Origin: a virus
Virus record (IMG/VR): IMGVR_UViG_3300034121_001039
Span: 1-31,608 of that record
Strand: one strand, 5' to 3'
DNA: 31,608 nt
The notes below the pieces were generated by a model. It was not told where the DNA came from and did no database searches. It saw only the letters and a program-made list of their open reading frames with translations. The translations under genes were made by a program, and so were the position numbers. Of the stretch, positions 8,175 through 26,470 are shown piece by piece (within the stretch, counting starts at the first letter, position 1; every line of letters begins with the position of its first letter).

Positions 8175-9248
8175 TTAGTTTTCTTCCAAAACTTCTTCGT
8201 CTTGTAGAATAGTTCTTACCATTCTATCAACTATTAAATATGGATCTCCGTTAGATGCTGGTCTTCTATCTTCGATATAACCAATCGCATTTGGATCGTT
8301 TATCGTAGAAGGAATTCTAATAGATTTAGTTCTATCTCCAATACCCCATCCAAAGTCTTTGATAGACGATGTTTCGTTCGCACCGGTTAGTCTTTCGTCA
8401 TTGTTCTCTCCATATACCGCTATATGTTCTGCATGAGTCTTCTCAAGCTTCTTACACATTTCGATTGCAATCTCTTTTTTGTTTACTTTGTCTTCTCTAA
8501 TATTTTTTGTCGAAAAGTTTACATGCATACCTGAACCATTCCAATCATTTCCTTTAAATGGTTTTGGATCTAATTCGATTCTATAATCAAACTCTTCACT
8601 CAATCTATGTAAAATGTATCTTGAAATCCATAGTTGATCCGCACCGTCTTCTGCAAATACAGTTCCTACTTGATATTCCCATTGTCCTAAAGCAACTTCT
8701 GCATTTGTTCCGGATATAGAGATTCCTGCATTAAGACAAAGGTCTGTATGTGCTTCTACAAACTCTCTTCCTACTACATTGTTAGCACCAACTGAACAAT
8801 AGTATTCACCTTGTTCTCTTGGCTCATCTTCTGTTGGCCATCCTAATGGTCTATTTGTTTTGTTATCAAAGATAAAATACTCTTGTTCCCATCCATACAT
8901 AGTTTCATCGTCATATTTTTTTAACGATTCGGTCATTTTAACTCTTGTATTACTTTCGTGTGGAGTACCATCAATATTATAAACCTCACAAAGAACTAAA
9001 ATAGAGTTTGTTGTAAATGGATTATGAAAATAGTTTTTAGGAACTAATAGTAATTCTGATTTAGATGTTTCTGCTTGGTATGTTGAAGATCCATCAAAGT
9101 TCCATACTGGTGCTTTTCTCAAACCATTTTTGTATGAATCTAAAATATTTGTTTCATCTTCGATGTGTTTCAGATTTACGACTTTTGTTTTTGTACGTAT
9201 TTGTTGTGTTTTGGCACCATCCAACCAAATATATTCTAACTTTTGCAT
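8175..9248 (-). CDS. glnA: Type II (eukaryotic-type) glutamine synthetase
   Basis: A full-length 357-residue GSII enzyme making glutamine from glutamate, ammonia and ATP. Signatures in order: WNFDGSST near residue 49, PF-type loop, GWEQEYFIFD with RPLGWP, YYCSVGANN, EVALGQWEYQVG, the ATP-site NGSGMHVNFST, HIAVYGENNDERLTG, then FGWGIGDRTKSIRIP and the C-terminal YIEDRRPASNGDPY. No key block is missing and the frame is intact, so it is probably active as a decamer, the family's usual form. Upstream is an AT-rich leader containing a strong hairpin at 9301-9326. A phage-borne GSII is unusual; it probably derives from a cellular gene and may keep glutamine supply up during infection. Confidence 0.95.
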   Translation of the reverse strand: MQKLEYIWLDGAKTQQIRTKTKVVNLKHIEDETNILDSYKNGLRKAPVWNFDGSSTYQAETSKSELLLVPKNYFHNPFTTNSILVLCEVYNIDGTPHESNTRVKMTESLKKYDDETMYGWEQEYFIFDNKTNRPLGWPTEDEPREQGEYYCSVGANNVVGREFVEAHTDLCLNAGISISGTNAEVALGQWEYQVGTVFAEDGADQLWISRYILHRLSEEFDYRIELDPKPFKGNDWNGSGMHVNFSTKNIREDKVNKKEIAIEMCKKLEKTHAEHIAVYGENNDERLTGANETSSIKDFGWGIGDRTKSIRIPSTINDPNAIGYIEDRRPASNGDPYLIVDRMVRTILQDEEVLEEN

Positions 9249-11914: not shown

Positions 11915-13627
11915 ATGGCATCGTATAACTATAACAACAATCAAGAAGGACAGGGCATGGGCTTTGTAAATTCTGCAGTAGAGAATAAAGGTCTTTTTAG
12001 TAGAATACTTAGAACTCTTTCAAACTACGGAATGAACTATGACGATATGATAATTCGAAACCAAGTAGGTATTGGTATAAACGAAGATCCATATGCAGCC
12101 AAAGGAAACTCTATGTACGACTTCTTTTCACAAAGAGCTGTTGCATCGGTTTTAAATAGAAAGTCTATTCCTTACTTAGATAAGGCTTATGCTGACAAAA
12201 GAAGGATTCTTAGAGAATATTCTATCAAAGACGAAATTCGTGATATGATTAGTGCCGTTGCGGATGAATGTATCGTTTACAATGATGATAGAGACTTCTG
12301 TTCTCCTAGAGCAATATCAAACGATTATTCTCAAGAAATAAAAGACAAATACCAAGAGTATTTTGAGAAAATCTATAATAAATATGGATTTTCAGATAGT
12401 ATCACTGCTTGGAATATGATAAAAGACTTTCTTATTGATGGTTATGTTGCAGTAGAGATTGTTTATGATGATAAAAAGAAGAATATCATTGCATTCAACA
12501 GACTTAGACCTGAAAGTTTAGTTCCTGCATATGAACCAAATGTAGGACATTTATGGATTCAGTTTCCTGAAGATCCTCAGCTTAGAAGAATATTTTTGGA
12601 TTCACAGATTGTATTCATTTCTTATTCTACACAAAATGATTATTCAGAGACTTCTTATATTGAAGGACTTATTAAACCATATAACCAGTTAAAGATTCTT
12701 GAACAAACTAGAATCATGTTCAACGTAATCAATGCAACTATTTATCAAAAGTTTACTATTCCAATTAAAGGTCTTTCTAGACAAAGAGCGGAAGAACAGA
12801 TTGGTCAGTTGATACATGACTACTCTGAGGAAGTTGAATGGGATGACACACTTGGTACACTTACCTTGAATGGATCTAAACATCTTCCTTATAACAAACA
12901 AGTTTGGTTTCCTGATGGTGATGCAGGTACTCCTAATATGACATTAGAATCTCCACAAGGACATGACTTAAATGAAGAATCAATGCTTAAGTGGTTCCAC
13001 CAGGCACTTAAAAGAGCTAGTAAAATTCCATTGACACGTTTCGAAGGAGAAGGTGGTGGTGGTAATCTAATATCAGATGCTGCTGAGATGACAAGAGATG
13101 AGATTAAGTTCCATAACTTTATATCTAGAATACGAGCAAACTTTAAAGAACTTATAGTTAAACCACTTAAACTACAGATGCTTATCGAGTTTCCTGAGTT
13201 GAAAGAAGATGAGATTGTTCTTAATCAAATGGATATAATCTTCTACACTAATCAAATATTTGAAGAGTGGAAAAAGATAAACAATTTGTCTAAAAAGGCG
13301 GAAGCACTTGGAACTCTTACTGCAGTAATGAATGGTGAGAAACCTTACTTCCATATCGAATGGTTGATGGATAATGTCTTCAAACTTACTCCTGAAGAGA
13401 AAGCGGAAAACCAAAAATACTGGGCAAAAGAGGCTGCTGGTGCCGGTGCTGGACCTGCGGGTGCTGCTGGTGCCGAAGGTGGTGCCCCTGCACAAGGTGG
13501 TGAAGGTGGTGAAGCTCCTGCTGAAGGTGGACAAGCAGCCGCTGAAGCTCCTGCACAGGGTGGACAAGCAGCTCCTGAAGCTCCTGCCGAAGGTGGTGCC
13601 GAAGGTGGTGCAGAATTTGAATTCTAA
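11915..13627 (+). CDS. 20: Portal protein, gp20-like
   Basis: A 570-residue portal vertex protein; T4 gp20 is 524. Recognisable blocks are YADKRRILREYSIKDEIRDM with AVADECIVYNDD, then AWNMIKDFLIDGYVAVEIVY, and the stem region with GNLISDAAEMTRDEIKFH near residue 385. It forms the dodecameric DNA channel and initiates head assembly. The last about 60 residues are an unusual low-complexity tail of Ala, Gly, Pro, Glu and Gln in repeats such as APAQGG and APAEGG, absent from T4 gp20. A terminator follows after about 16 nt, shared with a convergent gene. Confidence 0.93.
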   Translation: MASYNYNNNQEGQGMGFVNSAVENKGLFSRILRTLSNYGMNYDDMIIRNQVGIGINEDPYAAKGNSMYDFFSQRAVASVLNRKSIPYLDKAYADKRRILREYSIKDEIRDMISAVADECIVYNDDRDFCSPRAISNDYSQEIKDKYQEYFEKIYNKYGFSDSITAWNMIKDFLIDGYVAVEIVYDDKKKNIIAFNRLRPESLVPAYEPNVGHLWIQFPEDPQLRRIFLDSQIVFISYSTQNDYSETSYIEGLIKPYNQLKILEQTRIMFNVINATIYQKFTIPIKGLSRQRAEEQIGQLIHDYSEEVEWDDTLGTLTLNGSKHLPYNKQVWFPDGDAGTPNMTLESPQGHDLNEESMLKWFHQALKRASKIPLTRFEGEGGGGNLISDAAEMTRDEIKFHNFISRIRANFKELIVKPLKLQMLIEFPELKEDEIVLNQMDIIFYTNQIFEEWKKINNLSKKAEALGTLTAVMNGEKPYFHIEWLMDNVFKLTPEEKAENQKYWAKEAAGAGAGPAGAAGAEGGAPAQGGEGGEAPAEGGQAAAEAPAQGGQAAPEAPAEGGAEGGAEFEF

Positions 13628-16617: not shown

Positions 16618-18720
16618 ATGAAACCAGTTCTAATTGTAGAAAATTCAACGAACTCTCTTATAAGAGAAAGTTCAAGCACTGGTAAGAAGGACTATATTTT
16701 GGGTGGTACATTCACTGAATTCGGCGTTAAAAACCGTAATGAGAGAATCTACACTGCTGCAAAATTCCTTCCTGCTTTAGAGGAGATGAATGAAAGAATG
16801 AACAATCTTGGAATTGTCTACGGTGAATTTGATCATCCAGACGTTTTCGATACTTCACTTTCAAGAGCTTCTCACGTAATTACGAAAGCTAATTACGTAA
16901 AAGAATCAAACTTGGTAGAAGGTGAAATCAGATTATTAAGCACTTATTGGGGAAAAGAGGCAAAATCGTTAGTAGACGATGGTTGTCCTATTTTCGTTTC
17001 ATCTAGGGCTGCAGGTATTACTGAATCTGATGGCACTGTATCATTAAAAAAACTATTTACTTACGACATCGTTGCTGACCCAGGTTTTGCATCGGCTAAA
17101 ATGAGTGTAAAGGTTCTTAATGAGTCACTTGGTTATGACAACCCAAAATCTAACTTTAGGATATATGATTTATCCAACGAGTCAAAAACGGAAGAGTTAT
17201 TTAATATGAACAACAACGAATTTGTTACTAAACAACAACTAACTGACTACTCTCAGTATTTGGTTAAAGAGTTGGCATCAACTAAAAAAGAAGTTAAGAC
17301 TGCCATTACTAAAGGGAATATGAACCCTAAAAAACTTGAGCAATTGCTTGAGTATTACGATGAATTGAACAACACTAATTCACAAGTAGCTAAATATTTA
17401 GATTACTTAGCTGAGAAAGTTCAAATTATGGTAAATGAAAACAAGTCTTTGAAAGAAACTACAGAGAAATTAATCAAACATAACGATTATTTAGCTGAAA
17501 ATCTTGAAAAGGCTGTAAACTATTCTGAATACTTAGCAGAAAACTTAGATAAGAACATTGCTTATTCTGAATATGTTGCTGAAAACTTAGACAAAAACAT
17601 TGCTTATTCTGAGTATGTTGCTGAAAACGTAGACAAAAACATTTCTTACACAGAATATGTTGCTGAAAACTTAGACAAAAACATTGCTTACTCTGAATAC
17701 TTAGCAGAAAACTTAGACAAAAACATTGCTTACTCTGAATACATTGCTGAGAGCTTAGACAAATCTATTGCTTATGGTGAGTATATCGCAGAACACGTTG
17801 ATAACTCTATTGCTTACTCTGAATACTTAGCAGAACACGTTGAAGGTAACATCGCTTACTCTGAATACATTGCTGAACATTTAGATGATAATATTGCTTA
17901 CTCTGAATACATTGCTGAAAATTTAGACAAATCTATTAACTACCAAGGATTAATCGTTGAGAAGTTAAACGGTGGTAAATTGAACGAATCAGAAGGAGCA
18001 TTCCCATCATTAAATGCTGCAGGATTTGAAGATCTTGAAGATGAAAACGATGATGAAAATGAAAATGCATATGGATCTGAAGAAGAAGACGAAGATGAAA
18101 ACGGAATCGCAGAAATGACTCCTAATCATGCATACGCACACGAAGATAATGAAGATGAGAATGAAGATGAGGATTGTGGCCCAGGTGTTACAGGAAACTC
18201 AGATTCAGAATTATCAGAATCTATTGATAAATTAATCGAAGAAGCTAAAAAACGTAAAGTTTCTGAGACATCAGATTTGAATTTCTTGAAATTCATGTCT
18301 AAATCACAAGTTGATAGCTACTATGCTTTAACTAACGAAGAACAAGAGACAGTAAAACTACACATAAACGAAAGTAGCTACTTCACACAAAAAGAAGTAT
18401 TGTCTTTAATCTCTGAAGCGTTATCAACTAAAAACGAATCTCTTGAAGAAAGAGTAATCAGAATGATGCCTGAGAACACAAAGGCTATCTGGAATCAGTT
18501 AAATGAGTCTGCAAAAAAATCTATCATTTCACAAGCTAGATTATATCCTGCAGAAGTATTAATGACTGAAGGTCAAGTTGAACATTTTTGGGCAACAAGA
18601 AACCTAAAAAAGAATGAATCTGTATCTAAAAAACTTGTTTCTCACGAAGCTCTTATCCAAGAAGATAAGTTGTCTGATAATGACGTAACAGCTATTATGG
18701 AAAGATTCAAAAACATTTAA
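16618..18720 (+). CDS. 21-22: Prohead protease-scaffold fusion (gp21-gp22 type)
   Basis: 700 residues. Residues 1 to about 168 are a gp21-like prohead protease: GGTFTEFGVKNRNERIY, catalytic His73 in GEFDHPD and the Ser in FVSSRAAG (128/129). Residues about 170-290 are helical. About 294-441 consist of about ten 14-residue units (consensus YSEYIAENLDKNIA), a two-heptad coiled-coil repeat. An acidic linker (about 465-520) and a C-terminal helical domain with HFWATRNL follow. (L/I)NE tripeptides at 167-169, 455-457, 583-585 and 628-630 sit at domain borders or in linkers and look like self-cleavage sites. In T4 protease and scaffold are separate genes; here one chain would supply both and be processed during maturation. 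Confidence 0.92.
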   Translation: MKPVLIVENSTNSLIRESSSTGKKDYILGGTFTEFGVKNRNERIYTAAKFLPALEEMNERMNNLGIVYGEFDHPDVFDTSLSRASHVITKANYVKESNLVEGEIRLLSTYWGKEAKSLVDDGCPIFVSSRAAGITESDGTVSLKKLFTYDIVADPGFASAKMSVKVLNESLGYDNPKSNFRIYDLSNESKTEELFNMNNNEFVTKQQLTDYSQYLVKELASTKKEVKTAITKGNMNPKKLEQLLEYYDELNNTNSQVAKYLDYLAEKVQIMVNENKSLKETTEKLIKHNDYLAENLEKAVNYSEYLAENLDKNIAYSEYVAENLDKNIAYSEYVAENVDKNISYTEYVAENLDKNIAYSEYLAENLDKNIAYSEYIAESLDKSIAYGEYIAEHVDNSIAYSEYLAEHVEGNIAYSEYIAEHLDDNIAYSEYIAENLDKSINYQGLIVEKLNGGKLNESEGAFPSLNAAGFEDLEDENDDENENAYGSEEEDEDENGIAEMTPNHAYAHEDNEDENEDEDCGPGVTGNSDSELSESIDKLIEEAKKRKVSETSDLNFLKFMSKSQVDSYYALTNEEQETVKLHINESSYFTQKEVLSLISEALSTKNESLEERVIRMMPENTKAIWNQLNESAKKSIISQARLYPAEVLMTEGQVEHFWATRNLKKNESVSKKLVSHEALIQEDKLSDNDVTAIMERFKNI
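17515..17940 (+). repeat. 42-bp in-frame tandem repeat in scaffold
   Basis: About ten degenerate copies of a 42-bp unit (start AACATTGCTTACTCTGAATA) encode the 14-residue coiled-coil unit. Some neighbouring copies are nearly identical in DNA, indicating recent duplication or gene conversion. Confidence 0.9.
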
Positions 18721-18805: not shown

Positions 18806-20569
18806 ATGTCACACATTAGAATAGACAAAGCGAAAGCTACAAAGAAATGGGCTCCTGTTCTTGAGAACATGGGAGTTACTGGTGATAGAGTTGAATGGAT
18901 GGCGGAATACGCTGAGTTTCACTCAATCAACGAAAACGCATACGTAAACGCATCTAACGTTGCTGGTATGGGTGGTGTATTTGCTGCACAACCAGGAAGT
19001 TATGCTGGACAAACAAACGGTGGTACTTTAGCTACTGCAGCTTCAGTTGGAACAATCGGTTCAGGTGATGTTGGTCAAAACTTATTGCCAGTTGCAATGA
19101 AAATTGCTGCTCAAACAATCGGTTTAGACTTAGTTGCTGTTAAACCAACTCCAGGTCCGAAAATCGATTTACTTTACATCGATTTCCAATATGATGATAC
19201 TAGATTAGGTGCATCTGACGAAAGACCACAAGTTTTCAAATTAAATGTTGGTGCATCTGCATCTGTATTTAATGCTGCAATCCAAACAGGTGTTGGTTCA
19301 ACAATCGCACAAAATCAAGGTGGATTACAAAATGGTAGATATTTCTACTCAATCAATGGTGCTGGTACTCAGTCATTAGGTAACCCAACAATCTTGAGCG
19401 GAAACGTTGCTGGTGCAACAGTTTCAACTACTGAGCCTTTACAAAAAACTGGTGTTGTTGAGTTCTTAGGATTCTCTAGAATTGATGGTTTCCCAATGTT
19501 CAGAGCGTTTAGACAAGCTAACACTGCACACACTGCAGTTGATCAAGCTAACCTTGCTTGGACATTAGATCCATCAAGAAACACATTTACTGCTACTGCA
19601 TCTATGACTTCTCAAATCACTCACCTTGCTGGTCTTACTATTGCATCTGGAACTGTGACTATTGAGTTAATCTCTGCATTAGAAGATCATATCCCAGGTT
19701 TCTCAACAAACTTTGGTGGTGTTCCTTCTGGATCTGCACAAGGTTCTTACCCAATGTCAAGAAAAGAAGATGATGATACTTATGCTGGTGTTATCGGACC
19801 AAAAATCTCTTCTAAAACTATCGCAGTTGGTACTATCGAAGTATCTTCAGCTTTAAGAAGAACAGAAATCGAAGATATCAAAGCTAACACAGGTATGGAT
19901 ATCGTTCAAAAAATGGAATCTATCCTTGTTAATGAGTTGTCTCAAACAATCTCTAAACAAATCGTTGCTAAAATCTTCGAAATGGGTGCTTTAAACAGAA
20001 CTCTTGCTCCATTAGCAAGTGGGAAAATTGCAGTTACTGCTACTGCTTCTACTATCTTTGACTTAGATACTGCTTATGTTGGTGCTATGAATGGTGGTGA
20101 AACTACTCACGCTGTACAAAGAAAATTGATCACGAAAATTGCTCATGCTTCTAACTACATCGCAACAGAAGGAAGGGTAGGACCTGCTCAATATCTTGTA
20201 ACAAACGGAGGTTTGGCTGCGGCACTTCAAGATATCGCTGGTTATACTGTAAACCCAGTTAAATCTAAATTAAACGGACAAGGTCAGTTGTACCCTGTAG
20301 GTTCTATCGGAGATATCGCTATCTATGTTGATCCTTACATGAAATATAACGACAACAGAATCGTTTTAGGAAGAAAAAACAACCCAGATCAACCAGGTAT
20401 CATTTTCGTACCTTATTTGATGGCTCAATCTATCTCAGTTATTTCTGAAGCGACTTTCGCACCAAGAATGTTACTAAGATCTAGATATGCAGTTGCTGAA
20501 GTTGGTTGGTTCCCACAAAAACAATTTATGACTTTAGTTATAACTGATAACTCTCAGTACTTAAACTAA
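18806..20569 (+). CDS. 23: Major capsid protein, gp23-like
   Basis: A 587-residue HK97-fold capsid precursor; T4 gp23 is 521. N-terminal KATKKWAPVLENMGV corresponds to the helical propeptide. SINE at 40-43, followed by NAYVNASNVAGM, is the likely prohead protease cut. Then LLPVAMKIAAQTIGLDLVAV, the inserted variable region, TIEVSSALRRTEIEDI, and the C-terminal GSIGDIAIYVDPYMKYND and FAPRMLLRSRYAVAEVGWF, all matching gp23 homologues. It forms the hexameric shell. Codon use is regular, fitting very high expression. It is followed by a terminator and preceded by its own late-type motif. Confidence 0.95.
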   Translation: MSHIRIDKAKATKKWAPVLENMGVTGDRVEWMAEYAEFHSINENAYVNASNVAGMGGVFAAQPGSYAGQTNGGTLATAASVGTIGSGDVGQNLLPVAMKIAAQTIGLDLVAVKPTPGPKIDLLYIDFQYDDTRLGASDERPQVFKLNVGASASVFNAAIQTGVGSTIAQNQGGLQNGRYFYSINGAGTQSLGNPTILSGNVAGATVSTTEPLQKTGVVEFLGFSRIDGFPMFRAFRQANTAHTAVDQANLAWTLDPSRNTFTATASMTSQITHLAGLTIASGTVTIELISALEDHIPGFSTNFGGVPSGSAQGSYPMSRKEDDDTYAGVIGPKISSKTIAVGTIEVSSALRRTEIEDIKANTGMDIVQKMESILVNELSQTISKQIVAKIFEMGALNRTLAPLASGKIAVTATASTIFDLDTAYVGAMNGGETTHAVQRKLITKIAHASNYIATEGRVGPAQYLVTNGGLAAALQDIAGYTVNPVKSKLNGQGQLYPVGSIGDIAIYVDPYMKYNDNRIVLGRKNNPDQPGIIFVPYLMAQSISVISEATFAPRMLLRSRYAVAEVGWFPQKQFMTLVITDNSQYLN

Positions 20570-20659: not shown

Positions 20660-21058
20660 ATGAGAAATCTAAGTACATTCAAACGATTCTTAAATGAAGG
20701 TAAAAAAGATAAGTTTCCAGATATTAAAAAGTCTGAAATAGATGGATTTATAGTCTATTTAGGTAGAGATGCGAAATCAAATGACCATCTTACTTTCAAT
20801 GTTGCAGACGAAGAAGATATATGGATGCACGTTAAAGGTGTACCAGGTAGTCACGTAGTTATTAGAGTAAGAGAGAATCTTCCTACAGAAACAACTATTA
20901 AAAAGGCAGCAGAACTTGCTAAGAAGAATAGTAAAGCAAAGGATAAAGAAAATGCGATTGTTGTTTATTGTCAAAGAAAATTCGTTAAGAAAGATCCTGG
21001 TATGAATGATGGACAAGTCAAAGTTGACTATGTCAATGCTCACGATATTAATATATAA
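20660..21058 (+). CDS. NFACT-R domain protein with capsid-targeting-like tag
   Basis: 132 residues. Residues 1-14, MRNLSTFKRFLNEG, fit the targeting pattern (F7-x-x-F10) and end in the LNE seen at predicted protease sites. From about residue 28 it is an NFACT-R (DUF814) domain: GFIVYLGRDAKSNDHLTF, the core EDIWMHVKGVPGSHVVIR, a helix KKAAELAKKNS, then VVYCQRKFVKKDPGMNDGQV. In RqcH/NEMF this domain binds RNA and contacts tRNA and ribosome during quality control. The NFACT-N, HhH and coiled-coil parts are all absent, so it cannot be a full RqcH. Stand-alone NFACT-R proteins exist in bacteria. It might inhibit or mimic host rescue factors. Confidence 0.9.
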   Translation: MRNLSTFKRFLNEGKKDKFPDIKKSEIDGFIVYLGRDAKSNDHLTFNVADEEDIWMHVKGVPGSHVVIRVRENLPTETTIKKAAELAKKNSKAKDKENAIVVYCQRKFVKKDPGMNDGQVKVDYVNAHDINI

Positions 21059-22447: not shown

Positions 22448-22858
22448 ATGAAACTAAAAAAATATAACAACTATCTTAACGAAGATAAGTACGAAGACGA
22501 ATACTTTGACGAATATGGTTCTCAGGATGATTATGAAGGACAGGATGATGCACAAGGTGATGATGATATGGAACACCTTTTGTATCTATTAAGAACGTTT
22601 TTAAAGGATTCTGGTATAAACAATGTAAGTTTGAAGAACTCGGACTCTAGTATAAAATTAGAGATTGTTTTAAAAACAAAAGAAAGATTGACTGATGTAA
22701 TAAAAACTTTTGCAGTTCTTAAAAAACTATCAAATGATATAATGGCAGATTATGATGCAGAGTTTGATATCTGGGAAACCAAACAAGGAGATCCGTTGTT
22801 GATTATCGATTATTATTCACCAGAATATGGTGATGATGAAGATGGAGCACCTTTTTAA
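22448..22858 (+). CDS. Acidic protein with capsid-targeting-like tag
   Basis: 136 residues, starting one base after the peptidase stop. MKLKKYNNYLNED has the Y-x-x-Y spacing and LNE end of the targeting tags. Residues about 13-40 are a strongly acidic linker (YEDEYFDEY, GDDDME). The remainder is a small alpha/beta domain, helical at about 42-55 and beta-rich near KLEIVLKTKERLTDVIK. Family unknown. The coupling suggests co-production with the peptidase; the tag suggests it is an internal head protein. Confidence 0.75.
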   Translation: MKLKKYNNYLNEDKYEDEYFDEYGSQDDYEGQDDAQGDDDMEHLLYLLRTFLKDSGINNVSLKNSDSSIKLEIVLKTKERLTDVIKTFAVLKKLSNDIMADYDAEFDIWETKQGDPLLIIDYYSPEYGDDEDGAPF

Positions 22859-23724: not shown

Positions 23725-24243
23725 ATGATAATAGATAAATTTGATGGTAGATGGAGGTTTTTATCCAACTTCCACCCATGTGAGGTAGAACATCAAGGTA
23801 TAATATATCCTTCAGTAGAACATTACTATGTTGCAATGAAATGTAACAACGAGCAAATGTTAAATGGTAGACATTATACTATTGGTGATTTCAGAGAAAT
23901 GATTGCTCGTATTCCAAATGCTGCGATTGTTAAATCTCTTGGTAAAAAAATGCAGGTTAGAAAAGATTGGGATGAAAAGAAACTTGACTTCATGCTGTAT
24001 GGTGTCAGAGAAAAATTCAAAGATTCGGGTCTTGCGGAACTTTTACTATCAACAGAAGATTCTTCCTTGGTTGAAGGAAACGATTGGAACGACAAGTTCT
24101 GGGGCGTGTGTCAAGGAAAGGGTTTAAACCATTTAGGTCGAATACTTATGAAAGTCAGAAAAGAAGTAAAAGAAAAAGAAACTGGTGTTGTAGCAAAACC
24201 AAATTCTTTAGATGAATTCTTCAAACAAAGCAGACAAAACTAA
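23725..24243 (+). CDS. NADAR (YbiA-like) domain protein
   Basis: 172 residues, nearly all one NADAR domain: FLSNFHPCEVEHQGIIYPS with VEHYYVAMK at 12-39, and GNDWNDKFWGVCQGKGLNH with LGRILMKVR near 117-145. NADAR proteins are N-glycosidases acting on ADP-ribosylated or riboflavin-pathway compounds. Recent work assigns some of them reversal of ADP-ribosylation of guanine in DNA by DarT2. Glu32 and the aromatic residues of the family are kept. A short C-terminal tail (NSLDEFFKQSRQN) extends beyond the domain and could be a partner-binding peptide. It lies just before an adenine methyltransferase, so a DNA-protection role is plausible. Confidence 0.9.
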   Translation: MIIDKFDGRWRFLSNFHPCEVEHQGIIYPSVEHYYVAMKCNNEQMLNGRHYTIGDFREMIARIPNAAIVKSLGKKMQVRKDWDEKKLDFMLYGVREKFKDSGLAELLLSTEDSSLVEGNDWNDKFWGVCQGKGLNHLGRILMKVRKEVKEKETGVVAKPNSLDEFFKQSRQN

Positions 24244-24266: not shown

Positions 24267-25196
24267 ATGTCAATAATTTCATACTTCGGGGGTAAGGCGA
24301 ACTTCCAATCATTCATTACGCCAAAAATACCAAAAGATTGTAAAACATACATCGAACCATTTTCTGGTTCTTTCGCAATCTATATGGATTCAGACTTAGA
24401 GTTTGAAAATGTTATCTTTAATGATAGAAACAGACACCAAGCAAATCTTATGAGATGTTGTGCGTCTCCAGAAGAGTTCTTAGTTGAAATAAAAGCACTT
24501 TTGGCACCAGGTGGTGAGTTACATACTACAGAAACAGAAGCTGATAAAAAGTGGGATTTCTTCAAAGCTATCTATCACAAATATGTTAAGAATGATTTCT
24601 TAGATAATATGGATTTTGAGATTGGTGATTTCAAAGTAGGTGCAATCTATGCATTTCTTATCACATCTTCTTTCTCTAGTGTTTATCCAAGAGGTGGAGG
24701 ATTCACAGGATATAAGAAAAAGAAAGACAAATTGAACCTTTCAATCTTAATCAACAAGCTTGAAAAAAACAAATACACAAAAAGACTTCAAAACATCTCC
24801 GAGTTCAACAACTCAGATTTTGAAGAAGTAATCAGAAGACATGATTCAGAAGATACTTATATCTATTTAGACCCACCATACGCTCGATTTAACGACGTTA
24901 AAAACGATGATGATGGTAGACGTTTATTTTGGTACGGATGTGACACAGAGAACACTTTTGGTGTTGCTTCTCACAGAAGATTATTAGAGTTATTGAAGAC
25001 TACAAAGTCAAGATGGTCTTTATCTTACTACTACTTTCCTTTATTGGAAGAAATCTTACCAAAAGACAAATATATCTGGACTTCTAAAGAGTTTCATAGA
25101 CCATCTGCGGTTATTAAAACAGAAGGTGTTGAGAAAGAAAAAGGTATTGAGCTTTTGATTATGAACTACGATCCTGAAACTGGAGAAAGAGTGTGA
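24267..25196 (+). CDS. D12-class adenine-N6 DNA methyltransferase
   Basis: 309 residues, Dam-like. Motifs in order: N-terminal YFGGK (6-10), the SAM loop YIEPFSGSFAIY (28-39), FNDRN, and the catalytic YLDPPY with D202-P-P-Y205. Middle residues about 70-180 hold the variable target-recognition part, so the site cannot be read; GATC is possible but unproven. It modifies adenine in phage DNA, probably to evade restriction. No matching restriction enzyme is seen. It is 23 nt downstream of the NADAR gene and 3 nt upstream of the capsid-like gene, an operon. Confidence 0.92.
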   Translation: MSIISYFGGKANFQSFITPKIPKDCKTYIEPFSGSFAIYMDSDLEFENVIFNDRNRHQANLMRCCASPEEFLVEIKALLAPGGELHTTETEADKKWDFFKAIYHKYVKNDFLDNMDFEIGDFKVGAIYAFLITSSFSSVYPRGGGFTGYKKKKDKLNLSILINKLEKNKYTKRLQNISEFNNSDFEEVIRRHDSEDTYIYLDPPYARFNDVKNDDDGRRLFWYGCDTENTFGVASHRRLLELLKTTKSRWSLSYYYFPLLEEILPKDKYIWTSKEFHRPSAVIKTEGVEKEKGIELLIMNYDPETGERV

Positions 25197-25199
25197 AAA

Positions 25200-25922
25200 A
25201 TGGACGATAGAGAGATTCTTGATTTGATAAATACCGGAAAGGTCGAAATGTTCGACTATTCCGGTTTTTTCAAAAATAACATACATCTTCGTTGTTTTGA
25301 GACTAAAATAATTTCAACAAACTTTCCTATACATCTACCATCAAATGATATAGATGTCTGGACACAATGGATAAACACTATAAAAGAAGACTTTAGAAGA
25401 TCTATACATTCTATGTCTATGAAGAAGATATTCGACTCTGAAATTTTCTCGATACTCGACTATAGAGGAATCTCGGATAGAGATTATCCTATTGATTTAG
25501 TTCATGAAATTGCAAAAAGACCATACAAAAATGTTTTGGTTTCACCAAAGATTGCGGCTTTGATACAAGATACTGCCTTTTTCATACCTGATATGAATAA
25601 AGACAGAGGATCTCTTTCAAGTTGTTATAGAATAGGATCAATATTTTCTCATAAAGACATCTATGTAGATCCTTTTCTAAAATGGAACGATATGCGGATA
25701 TGTATATTTGAGGATATATTTGTAAACATAGAAGAAGTTTGTGCCAATATTAAGAATGATTCAACTTTTAATCCAAAGATAATGATGGAGTTTGGATTTG
25801 ACTTCAATTGTGGTCCTTCCGAAGTTCTTCATTTACAAGACGACGAATATCCAAATCTGGACCCAGTTGTGACTACTATACTTAGAGATAGAAAAATAAA
25901 CGGAATATTAGATGAAAACTGA
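25200..25922 (+). CDS. Capsid-like (gp23-related) short protein
   Basis: 240 residues. The region of about 115-185 aligns with the C-terminal half of the capsid protein encoded at 18806. VLVSPKIAALIQD parallels YLVTNGGLAAALQD, and GSIFSHKDIYVDPFLKWNDM parallels GSIGDIAIYVDPYMKYNDN. The upstream segment WTQWINTIKEDFRRSIHSMS may match the capsid helix EIEDI to ISKQIV. The N-terminal half of the HK97 fold and the propeptide are missing, so it is a shortened paralogue rather than a gp24 vertex protein (T4 gp24 is 427). No protease or targeting motif is seen. It starts 3 nt after the methyltransferase stop and overlaps the next gene by 11 bases. Confidence 0.7.
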   Translation: MDDREILDLINTGKVEMFDYSGFFKNNIHLRCFETKIISTNFPIHLPSNDIDVWTQWINTIKEDFRRSIHSMSMKKIFDSEIFSILDYRGISDRDYPIDLVHEIAKRPYKNVLVSPKIAALIQDTAFFIPDMNKDRGSLSSCYRIGSIFSHKDIYVDPFLKWNDMRICIFEDIFVNIEEVCANIKNDSTFNPKIMMEFGFDFNCGPSEVLHLQDDEYPNLDPVVTTILRDRKINGILDEN

Positions 25923-26223
25923 AGATTTTGATAGGATACATTCGTTAGGATTCTGGATTACAATAGATTGGAATCTATGTTTTTCTATAGACTATATGGT
26001 GGACGACGATCAGATAAACATTTTGGTTTGTTCCTATGAAGAATGGTCTCCGAATATTAAATTTGATGATGTTATAGAGCTATCCTGTGATATTTTTTAT
26101 GAATGGTACAATGAAAATAAAGATAAGATAGACAATCTATCTCAGAATGATTTTGATGATATTGTATTAGGTAATATTACCAAACGGGTAAGAAGAAATC
26201 TAAACCTAGACAAACTTCTATAA
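25912..26223 (+). CDS. Hypothetical acidic protein
   Basis: 103 residues, acidic, starting inside the 3' end of the capsid-like gene. MKTEDFDRIHSLGFWITIDW could be a tag-like start but lacks the usual aromatic spacing plus NE. A strand-rich middle and an Asp/Asn-rich helix follow; the C-terminus is basic (ITKRVRRNLNLDKLL). Not recognised. The terminator downstream ends the NADAR-methyltransferase operon. Confidence 0.65.
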   Translation: MKTEDFDRIHSLGFWITIDWNLCFSIDYMVDDDQINILVCSYEEWSPNIKFDDVIELSCDIFYEWYNENKDKIDNLSQNDFDDIVLGNITKRVRRNLNLDKLL

Positions 26224-26257: not shown

Positions 26258-26470
26258 TTATTTTTTAAATTCTTCAAACCATTCTCTTACTTCATCTTCA
26301 CCATCAAAAGTAGTAGGCCATTCATTCATTTTTACCAATAACTCTAAAACTTCTTCTTCGTTATAGGATTTTTCATCAATATATCTCTCACCATTCATTC
26401 CAGCGTGACCCTCATCAGAGAATATACCTTCGTTTTGAAAGTCTTCAAATCTTTTAACTTTCTTTACCAT
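26258..26470 (-). CDS. Small acidic protein with capsid-targeting-like tag
   Basis: 70 residues. MVKKVKRFEDFQNEG has F8-x-x-F11 followed by QNEG, close to the FLNEG of the NFACT-R protein. The rest is acidic (NEEEVLELLVKMNEW, DEVREWFEEF), helical, with no recognised family. It is the last gene of a three-gene minus-strand operon after the nucleotidyltransferase. Confidence 0.7.
   Translation of the reverse strand: MVKKVKRFEDFQNEGIFSDEGHAGMNGERYIDEKSYNEEEVLELLVKMNEWPTTFDGEDEVREWFEEFKK

Follow-up and report, generated by a model that had tools for sequence, protein, structure and literature searches.

Among described proteins, those nearest to the one considered here are T4 gp23 and the T4 vertex paralogue gp24 (PF07068). 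Among the encapsulins, Family 4 is described as a truncated HK97-fold protein of about 100 aa, made up of the A-domain only, encoded downstream of an enzyme gene and found in thermophilic archaea and two Bacteroidetes genera, and the cargo of Family 1 shells is described as carrying a short C-terminal loading peptide of the TVGSL type (PMC8346489). The internal proteins of T4 are reported to be diverse defence proteins with only a targeting sequence in common (PMC3012670, PMC12373910); this capsid targeting sequence is N-terminal and is cut off by the prohead protease (PMC5694885).

Here we analyse a 240-aa capsid-core protein (the mini) encoded at 25200-25922 (+) of the window, i.e., the whole 31,608-nt stretch of viral DNA under study. 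With gp23 and gp24 it shares the fold of the A/P core (7vrt and 1yue) and the A-domain motif, and it differs from them in having no counterpart of residues 1-330 of the major capsid protein (MCP), an additional C-terminal tagged helix, an accessory distribution, fast evolution and a Pfam score below threshold. Like Family 4 proteins it is a truncated HK97-fold protein with an enzyme gene upstream (in nine of 12 distinct minis), but at 240 aa it exceeds their size, retains the spine helix beside the A-domain, lacks PF08967 or any other Pfam match, is encoded by a phage and derives from gp23. As in the T4 internal proteins, a short terminal peptide is common to otherwise unrelated small accessory proteins (83 of 961 open reading frames (ORFs) in the related phage LR745206), although here it is C-terminal and of different sequence, with a putative destination in the head. 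A short C-terminal peptide also recalls the Family 1 cargo, but the tag is unlike the TVGSL type and occurs on 83 ORFs of one phage.

When searched against a phage collection with tblastn, the window MCP was 72% identical to that of LR756502 (642 kb), 70% to LR745206 (635 kb), 51% to both LR756504 (636 kb) and LR756501 (735 kb), 36% to LR756500 and about 28-30% to Lak phages. Judged by these matches, the window belongs to a huge, Mahaphage-like phage, near the uncultured 634-642 kb Mahaphages. Complete Mahaphage genomes are described at 634, 636, 642 and 735 kb, with Bacteroidetes predicted as hosts of the largest (PMC7162821).

The core of a T4-type capsid protein

The mini reading frame has 240 codons, starts with ATG and stops with TGA. 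A preliminary description, made from the DNA letters, had taken it for a short capsid-like paralogue, and this was borne out by sequence, profile and predicted fold. In a single BLASTP comparison with the window MCP (587 aa; 18806-20569, +; T4 gp23 family by PF07068, E 2e-29, and by its tblastn relatives), 29 of 100 columns were identical (E 7e-8). HMMER matched mini residues 113-169 to phrog_28442 (E 3e-4), the same family that is matched by the MCP (E 6e-49). The Pfam scan of the window mini gave no match at E up to 10, and the best of the other minis scanned reached 15.5 bits for PF07068, under the gathering threshold of 24.4; the mini thus falls short of the PF07068 score threshold but shares the HK97 fold and common descent with gp23-type MCPs. 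When a profile of four short forms was aligned with one of ten MCPs by hhalign, mini residues 45-203 paired with MCP residues 357-562 (probability 98.4, E 5.4e-15), and homology therefore extends well past the GSI/IYVDP motif.

The AlphaFold2 model of the mini had a mean pLDDT of 83.8 with nine aligned sequences. Capsid and encapsulin entries were found throughout its best 50 Foldseek matches in the PDB, among them the T4 isometric capsid (E 2e-6) and gp24 (E 5e-6), and VIA-align 2 ranked T4 gp23 and gp24 first with a tied Z of 11.9, superposing 194-207 residues at an rmsd of 3.5-3.6. The predicted fold is thus HK97-like, not one unlike the HK97 A-domain, and the profile E of 5e-15 together with this fold rules out a chance similarity of the motif. 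That the mini is a distant HK97-core paralogue of a T4-type MCP is, in our judgement, as good as certain. Two details of the preliminary description have to be adjusted. The alignment said to lie in the C-terminal third exists, with the motif at residues 146-164, about 60-70% along the chain and so not strictly in the last third; the spacing GSI-4x-IYVDP holds for the MCP, and the mini has GSI-5x-IYVDP.

By hhalign and the order of secondary-structure elements, the counterpart of the mini is MCP residues 331-587 (19796-20566, +). The spine helix of the P-domain (mini residues 51-78; 25350-25433, +) corresponds to MCP helix 366-399 in the AlphaFold2 models and the hhalign alignment, and is followed by the A-domain core with the motif GSI..IYVDP..K.ND (residues 110-171; 25527-25712, +), located by HMMER, BLASTP and hhalign. 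The elements come in the same order as in the MCP model, which was poor (mean pLDDT 60.5) and served for element order only: helix 96-105 matches 434-455, strand 111-114 matches 463-466, helix 116-123 matches 468-477, and strands 143-148, 152-156, 166-170, 173-185, 193-203 and 207-213 match 496-501, 504-508, 518-522, 531-545, 554-566 and 574-580, respectively. Only 50 residues precede the spine helix, and MCP residues 1-330 have no counterpart in the mini, a short stretch of strands before the spine perhaps excepted. In the HK97 fold this missing region would be made up of arm, E-loop and insertion; the mini is thus without the parts N-terminal to the spine helix that belong to a complete shell-subunit chain. 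What it keeps is the A-domain and, from the P-domain, the spine helix, which together make up the core of a T4-type capsid protein with the HK97 fold. Its terminal helix (residues 222-238) has no equivalent in the MCP model.

Gene neighbourhood, relatives and divergence

The preliminary description placed the gene outside the head module, which is half right, as the mini lies 4.6 kb downstream of the MCP within a conserved gene order: MCP, NFACT-R, peptidase, acidic ORF, NADAR, methyltransferase, mini. The NADAR-domain protein (23725-24243, +; PF08719, E 8e-23) is followed by a D12-class adenine DNA methyltransferase (24267-25196, +; PF02086, E 2e-20), whose gene immediately precedes the mini, and a 103-aa ORF that overlaps the end of the mini (25912-26223, +) terminates in a degenerate form of the tag described below; its homologue in locus L038 bears the tag. 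The NFACT-R RNA-binding domain right after the MCP (20660-21058; PF05670, 4e-17) is kept in relatives. Further upstream are a head maturation protease/scaffold protein (16618-18720, +; phrog_207, E 2e-29), which contains a long run of near-identical YSEYLAENLDKNIA-type repeats, as it does in LR745206, and the portal protein (11915-13627, +), recognised by a phmmer match to the 'portal vertex protein' ORF of Tenacibaculum phage PTm1. The ORF at 27-647 is full of short Gln/Gly repeats (QGQGQ, AQPQ).

A search for the short form in related phages, which combined protein and alignment searches of viral contigs, HMM sorting and whole-record searches, yielded 12 distinct minis in the Mahaphage group: the window (L001), L002, LR745206 (L005), LR756502 (L006), L036 (the same as L057 and L075), L037, L038, L039 (the same as L064), L041, L053, L074 and G018 (L212). 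Nine of them lie directly behind the D12 methyltransferase, a few bases apart or overlapping; in L053 and L212 one or two small ORFs intervene, and in L041 the mini comes after NADAR, the methyltransferase being absent from view. The mini is genetically coupled to the methyltransferase, and the coupling persists in cassettes that are inverted relative to the MCP (L039/L064, L074). Wherever a Mahaphage-group locus shows both genes, mini and MCP are within about 17 kb of each other.

The mini is missing at its site in six of 17 distinct methyltransferase loci (the L060 group, L079, L072, L047/L049, L086 and L087), a set that excludes loci ended by a contig border before the mini site, such as L052; the complementary 11/17 is a biased frequency, since many loci were found via the mini itself. 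In the mini-less loci the methyltransferase is followed by an ORF of 73-78 aa, tagged or nearly so, with one small ORF intervening in L047, and a similar ORF comes after the mini in L006, L038 and L053; the mini therefore looks inserted or lost between the two. Contigs of 385 kb (G035) and 465 kb (G014), which may be incomplete, gave a match to the MCP only, with no mini found. The mini is thus an accessory gene. Neither this presence/absence pattern, nor the close coupling to the methyltransferase in relatives, nor the C-terminal tag had been noticed in the preliminary description.

More distant truncated cores occur outside this set. In LR756500 (L007:7590-8531) one is fused to a different N-terminal domain matching phrog_9572; it and the following ORF (8532-9161, a weak match to the MCP profile, E 3e-4) form two successive capsid-like ORFs amid replication-like genes. 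The cultured Chryseobacterium phages MA9V-1 and MA9V-2 also hold a distant truncated core; in MA9V-1 this is MA9V1_157, annotated 'hypothetical protein', which is untagged and follows the MCP at a distance of about 3.3 kb. A tree with 37 rows grouped the Mahaphage minis in one clan (100/97), inside which the LR756500 core fell with weaker support (93/72), and placed the MA9V-1 core as sister to the MCP of MA9V-1 itself (99/95). Given this separate grouping, truncation to the core happened at least twice; the fine branching order of the truncated cores is unsure owing to long branches. Three further ORFs match the MCP profile away from the MCP: an untagged 157-aa ORF of LR745206 (L104:11407-11880, E 1.4e-19), the short ORF L101:4359-5165 (E 6.5e-5), and L006:14707-15459 (-) (E 1.2e-5; PHROG 28442, E 0.002), which adjoins a glycosyltransferase-like ORF.

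In most comparisons, though not all, the mini is the most diverged gene of its neighbourhood. L036 is identical to the window at 94% in the methyltransferase, 83% in the MCP, 91% in ORF231, 80% in ORF103 and 38% in the mini; for L037 the corresponding values are 91%, 83%, 89%, 60% and 30%, and for L005 they are 65% (methyltransferase), 70% (MCP) and 28% (mini). Nei-Gojobori dN/dS against L036 was 0.41 for the mini, 0.24 for the MCP and 0.02-0.12 for seven other measurable genes, ORF263 being saturated. Against L002 it was 0.16 for the mini, 0.02 for the methyltransferase and 0.36 for the MCP, which is the faster there, and against L037 synonymous sites were saturated in every gene except the MCP. 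The mini is under net purifying selection, usually far weaker than that on its neighbours, and its fast divergence can also reflect weak constraint.

A C-terminal tag on unrelated small proteins

Within the terminal helix of the AlphaFold2 model, residues 229-238 (25884-25913, +) form a tag with the consensus RDxKIxxIL, the best-conserved part of the mini. Among 11 minis (the near copy L002 excluded), mean column conservation was 0.73 over these residues vs 0.31-0.48 in each other section, and R229 and K232 were invariant in all 11. The same ending is present on unrelated small ORFs of related loci. For LR745206, the record was read completely, in pieces, for gene-like ORFs of at least 50 aa (greedy selection, table 11); 83 of the 961 (about 9%) carried the strict pattern [RK][DE].K[IL]..[ILVM] in their last 20 residues, each with Arg first although the pattern permits Lys. 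Elsewhere in these ORFs the pattern occurs 24 times, from which 1.7 copies are predicted at the ends, and shuffling the last 20 residues over 200 rounds gave a mean of 2.8 tagged ORFs and a maximum of eight. An unbiased search for end-enriched triplets recovered C-terminal R..KI (76 observed vs 3.6 expected) together with N-terminal K..K.F (65 vs 4.5).

We can state with great confidence that the tag is real and selected at the protein level. A DNA element at gene ends, such as a promoter or repeat, is ruled out by tag codons near genome usage. One expanded gene family is ruled out within the reach of BLASTP, as the 131 LR745206 proteins with the loose tag (R..K[IL]) fell into 131 singletons after tag removal. 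At E up to 0.001, family scans of the 83 strictly tagged proteins matched two in Pfam, four in PHROGs and one in PADLOC, the sole match to a defence model (E 7e-4); these scans covered tagged ORFs only and so give no measure of orphan status relative to untagged ones.

The tag is confined to part of the phages sampled. Strict tags were found on 19 of 311 ORFs in a sample of LR756502, on seven of 177 in G035 (160 of 385 kb read) and on six of 218 in G014 (160 of 465 kb). In a sample of LR756504 the strict tag was on two of 353 ORFs and the loose one on 32 of 353 (shuffled mean 7.8, maximum 15), its consensus having drifted, e.g., to RKxKIexL. Over the first 200 kb of each record the strict tag was on 0/252 ORFs of Lak-B1, 0/299 of LR756500, 0/259 of LR756501 and 0/254 of MA9V-1, which rules it out as a general feature of huge phages for this sample. 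That the mini is the receptor of the tag is unlikely, as G035 and G014, in which no mini was found, are still tagged, with the proviso that these contigs may be incomplete.

Some tagged ORFs are themselves capsid-like. LR745206 (L095:4947-5339) and LR756502 (L176:11143-11535) each encode a tagged 130-aa A-domain-like ORF, matching a mini profile that includes two homologues of these ORFs at E 8e-14 and 1.5e-9, respectively. Tagged ORFs of this kind also occur at L213:3566-3958 and L214:6413-6805, and in LR745206 (L095:4268-4963), LR756502 (L176:10418-11146) and L213 they adjoin a tagged ORF of 231-242 aa. In the contigs of L087 and L065 (L060 group), where the methyltransferase site has no 240-aa form, a tagged A-domain-like ORF of 130 aa is encoded in another part.

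A second terminal motif, of the MKYLKxYKxFES type (our own pattern), starts 96 of the 961 LR745206 ORFs, about a tenth; it is also enriched in LR756501 and, more weakly, in LR756500. It resembles the capsid targeting sequence of the T4 internal proteins. The mini itself lacks such an N-terminal start, and in LR745206 the motif and the loose tag co-occur on two ORFs vs 13.1 expected. By eye, similar starts are present on window ORFs at 719-1366, 1395-2045, 20660-21058 and 22448-22858 (+) and at 26258-26470 (-).

Possible roles of the capsid core

The mini is dispensable at its site, diverges, lies near a methyltransferase and a NADAR gene and bears a widely shared tag, which together favour an accessory protein. 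It is probably not a brick of the shell, and we put a role in conflict between phage and host a little short of an even chance.

The most attractive special case of such a role, and one already named in the preliminary description, would be a decoy for immunity that senses capsid protein, in which the free P- and A-domain core binds CapRel or a Thoeris TIR sensor without activating it, or spoils the MCP hexamers and so lets them escape sensing. CapRel is reported to bind the MCP through exactly these two domains, the parts kept in the mini, in a complex of 74 kDa (monomers 42 and 36 kDa; PMC9712102), and Sau-Thoeris to sense MCP hexamers in an E-loop- and P-loop-dependent manner (PMC11312562). 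The MCP stretch expected to hold the E-loop is unmatched in the mini, whose NADAR neighbour would suit a conflict over NAD signals (PMC9503650). However, a decoy would be expected to keep pace with the conserved MCP and retain its epitope, and the mini has diverged far beyond the MCP, which speaks against a plain decoy; we regard the decoy role as unlikely.

Somewhat less likely again is a regulator or dominant capper of capsid assembly, the former also among the suggestions of the preliminary description, whose core would join MCP capsomers laterally and, without the locking parts, limit or pace assembly. An HK97 core lacking MCP residues 1-330, encoded no more than about 17 kb from the MCP where Mahaphage-group loci show both genes and derived from MCPs at least twice, is consistent with such a part, but the gene is missing at its site in six of the 17 methyltransferase loci, which have closely related MCPs, the mini diverges where the MCP is conserved, and the tag, its best-conserved part, is absent from the MCP.

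By analogy with the Family 4 A-domain encapsulins, the mini might instead scaffold or house the methyltransferase. Its place behind that gene in nine of 12 cases, often overlapping, its retention there in inverted cassettes and the described downstream position of the truncated protein in Family 4 operons (PMC8346489) would all agree with an enzyme partner; yet the six methyltransferase loci without a mini, the L041 mini with no methyltransferase in view and the identities of 94% for the methyltransferase vs 38% for the mini are unlike tight partners, and we consider this improbable. The same low standing falls to a minor structural protein of the head, i.e., a vertex, portal-collar or head-plug protein. 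The preliminary description had named a minor vertex or portal-collar role, and gp24 does tie for the best Z, but that role is disfavoured for a protein without a counterpart of MCP 1-330 that is absent at six of 17 loci and usually the most diverged gene among its neighbours. A decaying, functionless duplicate, which would account for fast divergence and patchy presence, is scarcely credible given 12 distinct sequences with open frames, dN/dS of 0.16 and 0.41, both below 1, and tag Arg and Lys invariant in 11 of 11.

Our preferred reading, held tentatively, is that of an exapted capsid core that is delivered by its tag and acts in phage-host conflict; its target and the destination of the tag are what we infer. 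An MCP would have been cut down to its core and taken up among the small conflict proteins of the phage instead of serving as a lattice subunit. The tag would send the mini wherever the other tagged proteins go, with the head, where they would be cargo, as the most likely destination; in this it would be a C-terminal analogue of the targeting sequence on T4 internal proteins. Carried in the head, the mini would enter the next host early and act through its variable surface, plausibly countering a defence, perhaps of the capsid-sensing type. That the tag is a signal for head cargo is possible, at slightly lower confidence than the reading as a whole; the N-terminal motif on about a tenth of the ORFs may make a second head signal superfluous, and the tag may lead somewhere other than the head. 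Moreover, not every truncated core has the tag or the link to the methyltransferase: the MA9V-1 core is untagged and L041 has no methyltransferase in view.

The broadest proposal, and a more doubtful one, is that R[DE]xK[IL]xx[IL]L is a proteome-wide targeting signal in one Mahaphage branch, separate from the T4-like N-terminal signal. By it, a large arsenal of small, mostly orphan proteins would be gathered at a single site, most plausibly in the head, from which they would be injected, and some of the arsenal would consist of reused capsid cores, namely the 240-aa minis and A-domain proteins of 130 aa. In the literature searched (titles and abstract openings, with subscription journals outside its scope) no report of the C-terminal tag or of this particular truncated protein was found.

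The HK97 fold and gp23 descent of the mini are of a known kind; the tag and the repeated truncation are the surprising part. Capsid proteins are regarded as bricks, and here phages have cut the MCP down to a fast-evolving accessory core, at least twice independently. As a sequence rule, the tag singles out a group of orphans in the dark proteome of the largest known phages, and these proteins presumably have one partner in common.
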